Assembly: GCF_900103285.1 (NCBI RefSeq)
Contig: NZ_FNGS01000009.1
Span: forward strand, 206,772-246,491
DNA: 39,720 nucleotides
Reading direction: 5' to 3'
Origin: Siphonobacter aquaeclarae
GTDB lineage: Bacteria; Bacteroidota; Bacteroidia; Cytophagales; Spirosomataceae
The notes beneath the pieces were generated by a model. The model saw nothing but the letters and a program-made list of their open reading frames with translations. It had not been told where the DNA came from and did no database searches. The translations under genes and the position numbers were made by a program. Shown one piece after another: positions 7,662-38,647 of the stretch; positions within the stretch are counted from its first letter, which is position 1; every line of letters begins with the position of its first letter.

Positions 7662-7835
7662 AGGCTTTAAGCCGTAGGCCGTAAGCTTTAGGCAGGTGCG
7701 GCTGTTTGAATCCGAAAGTTCTTCGATCTGGCATCCAATACTAAAAAGAGTGCCTAAATTTCCGAGTCGTAAGACCGGTTTGATGTCCGTACCCGAGGCC
7801 TAAAGCTTACTGCCTACAGCTTAAAGCTGACAGCC
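7662..7835. repeat. Inverted heptad arrays, ARGCNNT family, with 97-bp spacer
   Basis: The left arm (7662-7696) is five heptads: AGGCTTT, AAGCCGT, AGGCCGT, AAGCTTT, AGGCAGG. The right arm (about 7794-7835) carries the complementary units TAAAGCT, TACTGCC, TACAGCT, TAAAGCT, GACAGCC. The arms face each other across about 97 bases with no ORF or other structure I can name. The element fills nearly all of the gap between the YcxB-like terminator and the DUF3050 gene (starting 7862). Confidence 0.85.
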
Positions 7836-8759: not shown

Positions 8760-10505
8760 ATGAACAATTTCCATATCCAGGAAGCCCCCAAGGTGTACGA
8801 TGTCATTATCGTCGGGTCCGGGGCGGGTGGAGGCATGGCTGCTTACCAGCTGTCGAAGGCAGGAGCGAAGGTTTGTTTGCTGGAAGCAGGGGGCTACTTC
8901 GACCCCGCTGATCCCAAGTACATTACGCAGTTGAAATTTCCGTGGGAGTCTCCCCGCCGCGGGGCGAGTACCACACGCCCTTTCGGTGATTTTGACGCTG
9001 CCTGGGGTGGCTGGCAAATCGACGGCGAACCGTATTCCGCGAAGCAAGGCACTGAATTTCACTGGTTCCGCAGCCGGATGCTCGGCGGTCGGACCAACCA
9101 CTGGGGCCGGATTTCGCTTCGTTTCGGGCCGGACGATTTCCGCCGCGGAAGCCTGACCGGCATCGGCGACGACTGGCCGATCAGCTACGAAGATGTTGCT
9201 CCGTACTACGACAAAGTAGACAAGCTGGTCGGTATTTTCGGGTCGAAAGAAGGCCTCCGCAATGAGCCGGACGGACACTTCCTTCCCCCGCCGAAAGCCC
9301 GTCTCCACGAGCTGATGATCAAGAAGGCCGGCAAGAACCTCGGTATTCCCGTGATTCCTTCCCGTCTTTCCATCCTCACGAAAAAAATCAACGACGAGCG
9401 TGGACAGTGTTTTTACTGTAACCAGTGCGGCCGCGCCTGCCAGGCGTATGCCGACTTTTCCTCGTCGTCCGTACTCTGTAAACCGGCCGTCAAGACCGGT
9501 AACGTTACCCTCATCAACGGCGCCATGTGCCGCGAGGTACTGACGGATCAGAAAACCGGTTTGTGTACCGGCGTTTCCTATGTCGACAAGGCAACGATGG
9601 AAGAGAAGACCGTTCGCGGAAAGATCGTTGTACTGGCGGCTTCCACGTGCGAATCGGCCCGTCTGCTCCTGAACTCGAAGTCTTCCCGCTTTCCGAACGG
9701 TCTGGCCAACTCCAGCGGCGTCATCGGCAAATACCTCAACGACTCTACGGGCGCGAGCCGCTCGGCTTTTATCCCGGCCCTCATGAACCGCAAGCGGTAC
9801 AACGAGGACGGCGTTGGCGGGATGCACGTCTACACCCCCTGGTGGCTGGACAACAAGAAGCTGGACTTCCCCCGCGGCTACCACATCGAGTACGGCGGCG
9901 GCATGGGTATGCCCGGCTACGGCTTCGGAATGGGTATCCAGAACATGAACGGAAAGTATGCTTACCCGGACGGAACCAAGTTGCCGTCAGGCGGTTACGG
10001 TTCCCGTCTGAAAGATGACGCCTACCGTTTCTATGGAGCGTATGTAGGTATGGCCGGCCGTGGTGAACCTATCCCCCTGGAAAGCAACTACTGCGAGATC
10101 GATCCGAACGGCGTGGATAAATACGGTATTCCGACGCTGCGTTTCCACTACAAATGGTCGGACAACGAAGTGAAGCAGGCCAAGCACATGCAGGATACCT
10201 TCGAGCAGATCATCCATGAACTGGGTGGTATTCCGATGGGCGACAAGCCCGGCGCCGACCGCAACTACGGTCTGGAAGCCCCCGGCCGTATCATCCACGA
10301 AATCGGAACGGTACGGATGGGCAGCGATCCCTCCAAGTCGGCACTCAACAAGTACATGCAGGGCCACGACGTGAAGAACCTGTTTGTGGTTGACGCCGCT
10401 CCGTTCGTCACCCAGGGCGACAAAAATGTCACCTGGACCATCCTCGCCATGTCCTGGCGGACCAGTGATTTCATTATTGATCAGGTGAAGCAGAAGAATC
10501 TGTAA
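8760..10505 (+). CDS. GMC family FAD oxidoreductase (sugar/alcohol dehydrogenase large subunit)
   Basis: A 581-residue flavoprotein. The FAD-binding Rossmann motif GSGAGGG lies near residues 20-26, and the C-terminal GMC domain includes HEIGTVRMGSDP and NLFVVDAAPFVTQGDKNVTW, with the catalytic-region His and Asn. A cysteine group C217, C220, C223 and C227 (pattern CxxCxxCxxxC) lies where the FAD glucose dehydrogenase alpha subunit holds a 3Fe-4S cluster, which suggests an Fe-S relay. There is no signal peptide; in known systems this subunit is carried out by a Tat-signal small subunit, which is present downstream (11096). The likely substrate is a sugar or polyol, not assignable from sequence. 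The two subunit genes are separated by the four-helix-bundle cassette. Confidence 0.9.
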   Translation: MNNFHIQEAPKVYDVIIVGSGAGGGMAAYQLSKAGAKVCLLEAGGYFDPADPKYITQLKFPWESPRRGASTTRPFGDFDAAWGGWQIDGEPYSAKQGTEFHWFRSRMLGGRTNHWGRISLRFGPDDFRRGSLTGIGDDWPISYEDVAPYYDKVDKLVGIFGSKEGLRNEPDGHFLPPPKARLHELMIKKAGKNLGIPVIPSRLSILTKKINDERGQCFYCNQCGRACQAYADFSSSSVLCKPAVKTGNVTLINGAMCREVLTDQKTGLCTGVSYVDKATMEEKTVRGKIVVLAASTCESARLLLNSKSSRFPNGLANSSGVIGKYLNDSTGASRSAFIPALMNRKRYNEDGVGGMHVYTPWWLDNKKLDFPRGYHIEYGGGMGMPGYGFGMGIQNMNGKYAYPDGTKLPSGGYGSRLKDDAYRFYGAYVGMAGRGEPIPLESNYCEIDPNGVDKYGIPTLRFHYKWSDNEVKQAKHMQDTFEQIIHELGGIPMGDKPGADRNYGLEAPGRIIHEIGTVRMGSDPSKSALNKYMQGHDVKNLFVVDAAPFVTQGDKNVTWTILAMSWRTSDFIIDQVKQKNL

Positions 10506-10506
10506 T

Positions 10507-11060
10507 CAGTTTTCAGTTTCGCGGTTTTCAGTTTTCTGTTGGTGGCAGTATGGCGACGGTTCATCGGTTAGAGGAGTTGAATGTCTGGAAAAAGGCCCGG
10601 GAGTTTTCGGGGATTATTTTCCGGTTGACGGAGACGGGTGCGTTGTCGTCCGACTTTGACCACCGTCGCCAGATCAGACGCTCGGCCGATTCGGTCATGG
10701 ATAACATCGCCGAAGGATTTGGAAGAGGAAGCCGGGGGGAGTTTATCCAGTTTCTGGGTATTGCGAAAGGCTCGCTGACAGAGTCAAAATCGCAGCTCTA
10801 CCGGGCGCTCGACCGCCACTATATCGGGAAAGATACCTTCGATTCCGTTTATCGGGATGCAGATGAGTTAAGTGGGATGATCGCCCGGTTTATAGGGTAT
10901 CTCAATGCCACAACCATCAAAGGATCAAAGTACAAACCGCTGACAGGCGTCAGCCTGTTGCGCGAACCCGAGGACTGGTCAGACTGGACAACCGGCGATT
11001 AAATGGAACACAGGTTCCGGCAGTCCAACTGAAAACCGAAAACCGAAGACAGAAAACAGC
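10507..11060. mobile_element. Putative cassette: four-helix-bundle gene between inverted GAAAACY heptad arms
   Basis: The left arm (10507-10538) starts one base after the GMC stop codon and reads as GAAAACY-type heptads on the minus strand (for example TGAAAAC, CAGAAAA). The right arm (11029-11060) reads GAAAACC, GAAAACC, GAAGACA, GAAAACA on the plus strand. The arms are imperfect inverted repeats of about 31 bases enclosing one gene. The cassette lies between two genes that belong to one enzyme, which suggests insertion. I see no target-site duplication and no transposase, so mobility is inferred from layout only. Confidence 0.6.
10550..11002 (+). CDS. Four helix bundle protein (S23 / intervening-sequence protein family)
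   Basis: A 150-residue soluble, nearly all-helical protein. It has the hallmarks of the S23/IVP-like four-helix-bundle family (TIGR02436 type): LNVWKKAREF at the start, DFDHRRQIRRSADSVMDNIAEGFGRGS in the middle with the conserved R-R-S-A...N-I-A-E-G core, then FIQFLGIAKGSLTESKSQLY, and a tail with DELSGMIARFIGYL. The family was first seen encoded in 23S rRNA intervening sequences and is also related in fold to the Avd accessory protein of diversity-generating retroelements. The biochemical role is unclear. Here there is no rRNA and no reverse transcriptase nearby; instead the gene is bracketed by inverted heptad arms. Confidence 0.9.
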   Translation: MATVHRLEELNVWKKAREFSGIIFRLTETGALSSDFDHRRQIRRSADSVMDNIAEGFGRGSRGEFIQFLGIAKGSLTESKSQLYRALDRHYIGKDTFDSVYRDADELSGMIARFIGYLNATTIKGSKYKPLTGVSLLREPEDWSDWTTGD

Positions 11061-11095
11061 ATACACCATCGATTTCACGTCTCAATTCGACACAA

Positions 11096-11710
11096 ATGAA
11101 ACGTCGCGATACACTCAAATCCATTGCACTGGGGTCGTTGGGAATGGCCACGGTGCCTTCTACCGATCTGGTAGCTGCGCCGCCGGAAGCACCCGTGAAG
11201 GTGCCCGGGGGCCGTCAGAAAGAAGAAGCCATCCGGGATGCCAAGCTGATGGCCGAGAAGTTCTTCACGCCGCATGAACTGAAGACTGTTACCATCCTCT
11301 GCGACATTATCCTGCCGGCAGACAAAAAGACGGTAAGCGCCTCTCAGGCCGGCGTACCGGCTTTCATCGAGTTCATGGCGAAGGATCAACCGGCCAACCA
11401 GGTACCCCTGCGCGGCGGTCTCCGCTGGCTCGACAGCGAAAGCATCAAGCGCTTTGAAAAGAAATTCGTGGAAATTACCCCCGCGCAACGCATCGAAATC
11501 GTTGACGACATCGCCTATCCCGAACAGGCGAAGCCCCAGTTTTCCCAGGGCGTCGCGTTTTTCAGCAAAATGCGGGATATGACCATGACGGGCTTTTTCA
11601 CGACCCGCGCCGGGTTCGATTTCCTCGGCTACGTCGGGAATACCCCCAACGTATGGAACGGCGTACCCGATGAAGTCCTGAAGCAGTATAACCTCAGCTA
11701 CGACAGCTAG
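11096..11710 (+). CDS. Gluconate 2-dehydrogenase subunit 3 family protein (Tat-exported small subunit)
   Basis: A 204-residue protein with an N-terminal twin-arginine type signal (KRRDTLKSIALGSLGMATVP), then the Gluconate_2-dh3 domain (FTPHELKTVTILCDIILPAD, then VPAFIEFM and the C-terminal FFTTRAGFDFLGYVGN). In gluconate and FAD glucose dehydrogenases this gamma subunit is needed for folding and Tat export of the GMC catalytic subunit. Its partner is therefore the GMC gene ending at 10505, which has no signal of its own. A cytochrome c subunit is not in the window. The gene ends 10 bases before the convergent GH13 gene. Confidence 0.88.
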   Translation: MKRRDTLKSIALGSLGMATVPSTDLVAAPPEAPVKVPGGRQKEEAIRDAKLMAEKFFTPHELKTVTILCDIILPADKKTVSASQAGVPAFIEFMAKDQPANQVPLRGGLRWLDSESIKRFEKKFVEITPAQRIEIVDDIAYPEQAKPQFSQGVAFFSKMRDMTMTGFFTTRAGFDFLGYVGNTPNVWNGVPDEVLKQYNLSYDS

Positions 11711-25529: not shown

Positions 25530-25595
25530 TTTCTGTGAATTCCGGGTGTTTTGTGAGGCTTGTTTTTCTCACAGAAAACGCAGAATTCACAGAAA
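25530..25595. repeat. Inverted nonamer array, CRCAGANNT family, 10-nt loop
   Basis: The right arm (25568-25595) reads CTCACAGAAAA, CGCAGAATT, CACAGAAA; the left arm (25530-25557) is its imperfect complement (TTTCTGTGAATTCC to TTTTGTGAG); the loop is GCTTGTTTTT. The whole element fills the gap between two rhodanese genes and could also fold as a long hairpin in the transcript. Confidence 0.85.
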
Positions 25596-30231: not shown

Positions 30232-30304
30232 TTGTCTGTGTAGTCTGTGAAGTCCGTGAGAAAATTAAAATTGCTCACAGACTTCACAGACTTCACAGAA
30301 AGAG
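30232..30304. repeat. Inverted nonamer array, CRCAGANNT family, 13-nt loop
   Basis: The right arm (30274-30304) is CTCACAGACTT, CACAGACTT, CACAGAAAG; the left arm (30232-30260) is the near-complement (TTGTCTGTGTAGTC, TGTGAAGTCCGTGAG); the loop is AAAATTAAAATTG. The left arm begins at the base after the DyP peroxidase stop codon. The element resembles the one between the rhodaneses in unit, loop-proximal CTCACAG and loop size. Confidence 0.88.
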
Positions 30305-38410: not shown

Positions 38411-38647
38411 GGGGCAGAGGGCATGGGGCATAGGGTGAAATCCGCGTGCCCGGCCGTGTTACAATAAAAAAGAAAACCGTGACAGGGTTCCATCCTGTCA
38501 CGGTTTTCTTGGGGCTTTAAGCAATAGGCGATAAGCTGTAAGCAATAGGCTATAAGCTGTAAGCAACAGACCCCTCCTTCTTTGCCTAAAGCTTATGGCC
38601 TACAGCTTAAAGCCCTCTGCTCCCTGCCCCCTGCCCCATGCCCCCTG
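38408..38647. repeat. Nested inverted heptad arrays, CCCCNTG outside and ARGCNNT inside
   Basis: The outer left arm (38408-38435) is four heptads on the minus strand (CCCTATG, CCCCATG, CCCTCTG, CCCCATG, the last one being the DCC start codon). The outer right arm (38620-38647) is CTCCCTG, CCCCCTG, CCCCATG, CCCCCTG on the plus strand and ends on the base before the next gene's stop codon. Inside are ARGCNNT arms: left 38519-38569 (AAGCAAT, AGGCGAT, AAGCTGT, AAGCAAT, AGGCTAT, AAGCTGT, AAGCAAC) and right 38583-38614 (TAAAGCT, TATGGCC, TACAGCT, TAAAGCC). The terminator lies between. Almost the whole 237-base gap is repeat. Confidence 0.88.
38470..38510. terminator. Strong bidirectional terminator hairpin
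   Basis: A perfect 17-bp stem (AAGAAAACCGTGACAGG with CCTGTCACGGTTTTCTT) and 7-base loop GTTCCAT. It follows the T9SS type B gene on the minus strand and sits inside the outer pair of heptad arms. Confidence 0.85.

Follow-up and report, generated by a model that had tools for sequence, protein, structure and literature searches.

The locus described here raises the question of why a gene for an S23-like protein, enclosed by two facing runs of heptads, stands between the genes of a GMC oxidoreductase large subunit and a Gluconate_2-dh3 small subunit. The window, i.e., the whole stretch of DNA analysed, comprises 39,720 nucleotides of the genome of Siphonobacter aquaeclarae (G000; 6.19 Mb), which contains two PF05635 genes. 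The features concerned are as follows.

8760 to 10505, forward strand: GMC oxidoreductase large subunit gene (GMC_oxred_C, GMC_oxred_N), ending in TAA; left host gene of the junction
10507 to 10538, forward strand: left arm of GTTTTC heptads, reading CAGTTTTCAGTTTCGCGGTTTTCAGTTTTCTG
10550 to 11002, forward strand: S23-like four-helix-bundle gene, 453 bases, 150 amino acids (PF05635, TIGR02436)
11029 to 11060, forward strand: right arm of GAAAAC heptads, inverted relative to the left arm, reading CTGAAAACCGAAAACCGAAGACAGAAAACAGC
11096 to 11710, forward strand: Gluconate_2-dh3 small subunit gene (Pfam family match); right host gene of the junction
7664 to 7827, no strand: gene-less hairpin of GCYNTAR heptads (inverted-repeat search), the kind that frames the second S23 gene (C11:244742, locus L002)
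38512 to 38615, no strand: gene-less hairpin of GCYNTAR heptads (inverted-repeat search)

The preliminary description had placed an S23-like gene, framed by facing GAAAACY heptads, between the two host genes, and its coordinates and families have been confirmed. It had also let the left arm begin one base past the GMC stop, which is correct: the stop ends at 10505, base 10506 is T, and the arm starts at 10507. The window also contains, at 25530-25595 and 30235-30299, hairpins built from 9-base TCTGTGNNN units, which belong to a dispersed kind.

The S23-like protein and its arms

The window protein matches 23S_rRNA_IVP (PF05635) with an E-value of 7.9e-33 (113.3 bits; curated cut-off 33.8) and TIGR02436 (four helix bundle protein) with 106.9 bits (cut-off 24). 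PF05635 is its sole Pfam match at E-values up to 1e-3, at which no Y1 (HUH) transposase was matched. Its predicted structure has four long helices and a loose C-terminal tail (pLDDT 83), and the best solved matches to this model were 2gsc, an S23/IVP structure solved since 2006, and 2rld, followed by Avd (chain 4dwl_D; TM 0.87 by target length, Foldseek E 0.02, identity 8%). Relatives with the Avd fold form pentamers. The Avd model NF033474 did not match the window protein at 1e-3, and an S23 protein of an Anabaena plasmid reached 28.2 bits against this model's cut-off of 80. Among 187 S23 genes, residues N52 (186/187), E55 (187/187), G56 (186/187), and E78 (187/187) are nearly invariant. For the two least saturated gene pairs, dN/dS is approximately 0.09 (pN 0.064 and pS 0.479 for L038/L040; pN 0.050 and pS 0.406 for L102/L105), and in three further, more distant pairs dS is nearly or fully saturated; judged from these substitutions, the S23-like gene is under purifying selection. 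A known defence protein was rejected, since PADLOC gave no match for either of two S23 proteins tried. In the available part of one report, S23/IVP proteins are said to have no known function (PMC4990558).

We gathered 192 unique S23 genes from all loci, 187 of which have usable flanks. Inverted arms with scores of at least 12, 16, and 20 were found in 152, 109, and 61 of the 187 genes, respectively. The corresponding numbers were 12, 0, and 0 for 301 control ORFs from the same loci, and 8, 4, and 2 for 260 genes of a stricter control, each flanked on both sides by 40 or more intergenic bases; the arm pair of the window scores 18.0. When the upstream flank of one gene was combined with the downstream flank of another, 2.15% of 2792 mismatched pairs reached 16. 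For the named loci alone, arms were present in 66 of 74 S23 genes and in 15 of 306 controls, five of 79 genes having been dropped for flanks or reading frames that were too short. Other S23-like genes thus do carry such arms, and the objection raised beforehand, that they might lack them, falls away. Scores below 12 were obtained for 35 of the 187, including the junction gene of G009 (8.5). Self-matching of the flanks is maximal at a lag of 7 (0.369 and 0.368; controls 0.282 and 0.277), and also at 14. Over 131 arms with a score of at least 14 and a length of at least 18, the best period was 7 in 87, 8 in 24, 9 in 11, and 10 in 1, with none in 8.

When arm kinds were arranged by eye in the order of the S23 tree, the large subfamily to which the window gene belongs had GTTYNNR arms, and other subfamilies had GCTNTYR, GGAGGAAAG-like, AGTCGAT, AGGCANN, AGACAAG, and more. 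A Mantel test of arm sequence against S23 protein, which excluded 538 pairs with similar outer flanks and 36 armless genes, gave an r of 0.473, reached in none of 500 permutations (best 0.105). Arms were also shuffled among the S23 genes within each genome (22 genomes and 49 genes, 48 scored), and the observed match was reached in 0 of 5000 tries; therefore, genome composition is not the explanation of the arm-protein match. Of 14 cassettes at GMC junctions, only four had their own arm pair as the top match in the row, because arms of the same kind fit each other across genomes. At the level of sequence, these tests show a dependence of the arms on the S23 subfamily.

Armed S23 genes have also been found outside the family. 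Among 19 plasmid records with an S23 match, eight were examined, of which seven are cyanobacterial, and arms were present in all eight (scores 14.5-30), with units including GGGAACA and GGTGACA. Three cyanobacterial plasmid S23 genes with heptad arms lie between cas genes (L342, L344, and L345; cas6/cas4 twice and cas10/cmr3 once). Matching repeats elsewhere on three cyanobacterial plasmids with an armed S23 gene, searched as 50-kb pieces, amounted to none, one hairpin, and one array, and the plasmid searches gave no usable empty sites for S23 cassettes. One 102-kb Riemerella record labelled as a plasmid (L339, NZ_CP081938.1) carries lepA, an iron-sulphur assembly gene, S23, and sufB, and so may be a chromosome fragment. 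No recombinase or reverse transcriptase travelling with S23 was found among five scanned of the 14 largest neighbour clusters (SufC, SufB, RND permease, PurE, and another S23).

Dispersed repeats and their matching S23 genes

Matches to GAAAACNGAAAACNGAAAAC with up to two mismatches were found in 319 + 324 windows of the G000 genome and those to the reversed control in 0 + 2, overlapping windows within one array being counted separately. The earlier idea that arms and gene form a unit was right in essence; it was too narrow in missing that the arms belong to this dispersed palindrome family. In a 460-kb sample of G000, 47 inverted repeats scored at least 16 (48 before exclusion of one run of N), 43 of them with arms mostly outside ORFs, and a crude shuffle gave none. 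By eye, about 11 were assigned to GCYNTAR, the kind of the second S23 gene's arms, five to GTT, the kind of the window S23 gene's arms, and eight to TCTGTGNNN, for which there is no matching S23 gene in G000.

For 121 genomes of the family, AAACNNN arrays were compared with S23 genes of subfamily A1, and GCTGTAR arrays with those of subfamily A2, by using cut-offs set after seeing the data (A1, at least 115 bits; A2, at least 149 bits; AAAC-rich, matches minus control of at least 60; GCT, at least 2). An A1 gene is present in 18 of 28 AAAC-rich genomes and 6 of 93 others (Fisher p 7.6e-10). An A2 gene is present in 11 of 13 GCT genomes and 8 of 108 others (p 4.0e-9); two of these 19 (G015 and G020) have a stop in the match, and the A2 bit scores thin out near the cut-off without a sharp gap. 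The p-values became 1.4e-5 (A1/AAAC) and 8.8e-6 (A2/GCT) when training genomes were excluded, and cross pairs of a subfamily with the other heptad gave 0.07 and 0.46. In permutations inside the varying genera (6 and 7), p was 0.005 for A1/AAAC, and 0 of 20000 permutations matched the observation for A2/GCT. The exceptions are 10 of 28 AAAC-rich genomes without A1 (G023, G062, G073, G087, G090, G095, G097, G105, G124, and G132), 6 of 24 genomes with A1 that are not AAAC-rich (G019, G043, G053, G071, G112, and G119), 2 of 13 GCT genomes without A2 (G069 and G122), and 8 of 19 genomes with A2 and fewer than two GCT matches (G010, G015, G041, G046, G077, G080, G100, and G131). Among six Siphonobacter genomes, the A2 gene is found only in G000, which has 135 GCT arrays, and there are none in each of G001-G005. 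As a statistical tendency with clear exceptions, these counts show that genomes with a given S23 subfamily hold many arrays or hairpins of the matching heptad.

Two further kinds of structure were observed. At L117 (G112:C1:330802), an S23 gene has very long arms of GATAGTC units (score 85), and in this genome, G112, the reversed AAAC control pattern matches 196 times. A palindrome whose arms are 105 bases long lies at L306:18124-18432 and at L298:12662-12954; it has GTTTTC heptads at its ends and an inner part resembling another genomic palindrome, as if an element were nested in an element.

Exchange at the GMC junction and rewriting of gene-less hairpins

In a first set of 27 junction loci, an S23 gene is present in eight (G000-G005, G007, and G009) and absent from 19, with gaps of 2-172 bases. 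It is also present in G056, G058, and G072 of a second junction set and at the junction of a second GMC pair in G113, G075, and G129. At a GMC junction of G113 and G129, a gap of 114 bases holds a gene-less heptad hairpin, and in G044 a junction gap of 223 bases holds a truncated S23 reading frame with both arms kept. Since a gene-less hairpin and both intact and decayed cassettes are found at GMC junctions of relatives, gene-bearing and gene-less units occupy the same spot. Other hairpins lie at GMC junctions of G097, G087, G105, G075, G121, and G061, and in L042, L044, L047, and L062 the S23-less gap is occupied by a short hairpin belonging to another kind of repeat. CTCTGCG, CGCAGATTTACACAG, or CTCTGAT hairpins are frequent in S23-less gaps (these four loci and the six genomes except G075); because the gap often holds hairpins of other kinds, the GMC junction looks like a hot spot.

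A private recent insertion was rejected, since S23 stands at the junction in all six Siphonobacter genomes. One old, vertically inherited insertion was also rejected: for the family because a single clade of all 14 junction S23 genes is rejected (AU p 0.00036, 4 to 5 changes), and for the genus, in which the six junction genes do form one clade (100/97), because the S23 and flank trees differ. The proposal of a mobile unit between the subunit genes therefore stands in part: gene and arms behave as exchangeable together and 19 of 27 junction loci are without the unit, but its recent private insertion is excluded. The opposite expectation, a gene kept in place while its arms drift, is correct for the gene, kept in all six Siphonobacter genomes, but not for the arms, which change kind together with it. 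No target-site duplication was seen at the GMC junction in the window, at the relatives' junctions, or in the alignment of G001 with G004.

The genomes G001 and G004 are 92.5% identical over 330 kb, and their junction flanks are 92-100% identical per 50 bases in the nearest 300 bases on each side and 98-100% in the nearest 100. Their cassettes (528 and 556 bases) are only 68% identical, with 66% DNA identity between the S23 genes and arms of different kinds, and G002 and G003 repeat this picture (flanks 89%, S23 67%). The flank tree supports (G001,G004) and (G003,G002,G005), each with 100/100, whereas the S23 DNA tree separates (G000,(G001,G002)) from (G004,(G003,G005)) with 100/100. The position of G000 is unsure because the S23 protein tree, unlike the DNA tree, places it beside G003-G005. 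Arms are of GTTTTC type in G000, G001, and G002 and of GTTTTGGGTTTAG type in G003, G004, and G005, which takes one change on either S23 tree and two or more on the flank tree. As read from these alignments and trees, a change of the gene at this fixed operon junction is accompanied by a change of the arms, but not of the flanks.

Some gene-less hairpins have been rewritten likewise. At orthologous gaps of G001 and G004, the kind changed in both arms of four of eight heptad hairpins (G001:C1:3144546, 3169457, 3218760, and 3253406; flanks 94-100%), one is the same (3154138), and three are similar or partly changed (3114277, 3302922, and 3304512). Median identity over length was 0.79 in 13 flagged gaps, of which eight were judged by eye to be heptad hairpins, and 0.93 in 168 heptad-free gaps (p 4.5e-4), 11 other mapped gaps being in neither group. 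For the window hairpin at 7664-7827, no counterpart was found in the corresponding gap of G001-G004, and for that at 38512-38615 none in the corresponding gap of G001, G003, and G004, G002 being unmapped; flank identity at these gaps is approximately 65-79%, too low for base-exact junctions. A clean filled/empty pair of a gene-less hairpin was found neither for these gaps nor between G001 and G004, the relatives being too far or both sites filled.

A proposed helper for palindromes and its comparison with known systems

We regard the chances as about even that arms plus gene represent a single copy of a selfish, REP/RAYT-like palindrome system in two parts, whose helper is not a transposase. 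The S23-like protein, an Avd-fold four-helix bundle, would bind its own heptads in a folded strand, more likely single-stranded DNA than mRNA; aided by replication or repair enzymes of the host, it would allow copies of matching palindromes to be placed in operon gaps or to overwrite them. The gene-bearing cassette would be the helper and the gene-less hairpins non-autonomous copies; the action of the protein, on DNA or RNA, we infer. This helper model is favoured because arms, mostly of period 7, frame S23-like genes far more often than control genes, because the Mantel and swap tests show specificity and A1/AAAC and A2/GCT are associated, because cassettes are exchanged as units and half of the eight hairpins are rewritten in place, and because hairpin, intact, and decayed cassettes share the GMC junction, the gene is under purifying selection, and the fold matches 2gsc, 2rld, and Avd. 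It is weakened by the exceptions to the heptad/S23 association, the TCTGTGNNN hairpins without a matching S23 gene, the 35 genes of low score, the cyanobacterial plasmids nearly without copies, the own arms being best in only 4 of 14 cassettes, and the lack of a target-site duplication or clean filled/empty hairpin pair. A further point against it is that in Coxiella, according to the available part of that report, the S23 protein is apparently not made and its ORF is decaying (PMC4990558).

A post-transcriptional regulon is possible but unlikely. The S23-like ring would then be a TRAP-like RNA-binding regulator reading heptads, the hairpins between operon genes would be its sites, and S23 would be autoregulated via its own arms. 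The hairpins are indeed mostly intergenic (43 of the 47 above), the RNA of 10500-11066 folds well, closed by both arms (-213.5 kcal/mol, z -4.69, an energy that none of 100 shuffles reached), the predicted fold resembles Avd of DGR ribonucleoproteins, and S23 lies inside operons, 11 of the 79 named loci having it between sufB and sufC; these 11 come from several Bacteroidota families (L170, L172, L173, L177, L184, L186, L187, L201, L217, L227, and L229). However, arm mismatches in the 152 armed genes have no RNA signature, G-T, tolerated by gene-strand RNA, being as frequent as A-C (170 and 161, p 0.66), so there is no sign of RNA-strand selection on the arms, and switching of hairpin kind at fixed sites between sister genomes is odd for regulatory sites. 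We lean towards a process more at the DNA level; transcripts may be affected too.

Replication slippage and quasipalindrome correction are mechanisms invoked for palindrome upkeep, and heptad palindromes might arise and stay complementary through them, with the S23 gene merely resident in some. The strand symmetry of the mismatches, the hairpins outlasting the gene in 10 AAAC-rich genomes without A1, and the TCTGTGNNN hairpins without S23 agree with this; we consider it improbable, since it does not predict arms that track the protein subfamily, two subfamilies each with its own heptad, or purifying selection on the gene. Similarly improbable is an explanation of the exchange alone by ordinary homologous recombination between Siphonobacter species, or by two old alleles kept by balancing selection, with no element activity: two cassette alleles are common to several species at one site, but the G001/G004 flanks have no divergent donor tract by the cassette and four of eight gene-less sites are rewritten likewise.

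Extending the helper model, we consider it possible, though not probable, that S23-like proteins as a class are sequence-specific helpers of palindromes whose spread and in-place overwriting involve no transposase, each subfamily reading its own 7-9-base unit. Such an element would then have been noticed only as the rRNA intervening sequence (IVS), and the heptamer families of Bacteroidota and cyanobacteria would be largely gene-less copies; the S23 genes of the family, those of plasmids, and the Coxiella rRNA IVS would form one class. The protein-to-repeat correspondence gives a direct functional hypothesis for S23/IVP proteins, and the results describe a family of palindromes whose members are rewritten in place although no recombinase is visible. 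Among the titles and abstract openings covered, in which subscription papers are scarce, none tied S23-like genes to dispersed heptads.

As in 23S rRNA IVSs, an S23-family ORF lies within an inverted-repeat stem, and in Coxiella the available text describes tandem GACAGAT heptamers ahead of the ORF (PMC4990558). IVSs lie inside the 23S rRNA gene and are excised from RNA by RNase III, whereas the window cassette, known from sequence alone, lies between two protein genes and its arms have many gene-less relatives in the genome. The heptamer repeats (TAACTGA etc.) of Beggiatoaceae, cyanobacteria, and Bacteroidetes likewise form intergenic arrays in overlapping phyla, and some arrays are present in one genome and absent from a close relative, as reported in the part available (PMC4679880); they are described there as direct repeats, in a main text that, as far as available, does not use the terms S23 or four helix. 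A link of these repeats to S23 could explain their spread, reported in that part without a mechanism. Avd of diversity-generating retroelements resembles the predicted window protein in fold only, differing in its 8% identity and the missing NF033474 match, and no reverse transcriptase family was named among the host genes scanned at the junction. In REP/REPIN and RAYT systems, according to the available part of one account, dispersed intergenic palindromes accompany a distinct gene that is present in one copy, with palindromes of its own kind on its flanks (PMC3116915), and the window genome also has dispersed palindromes of the same kind as its S23 arms. RAYTs are tyrosine (Y1) transposases, whereas the window protein matches PF05635 only and its arms are heptad runs. 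The system is best seen as a family of palindromes with an S23-like cognate helper, which would work like REP/RAYT but is no member of it.
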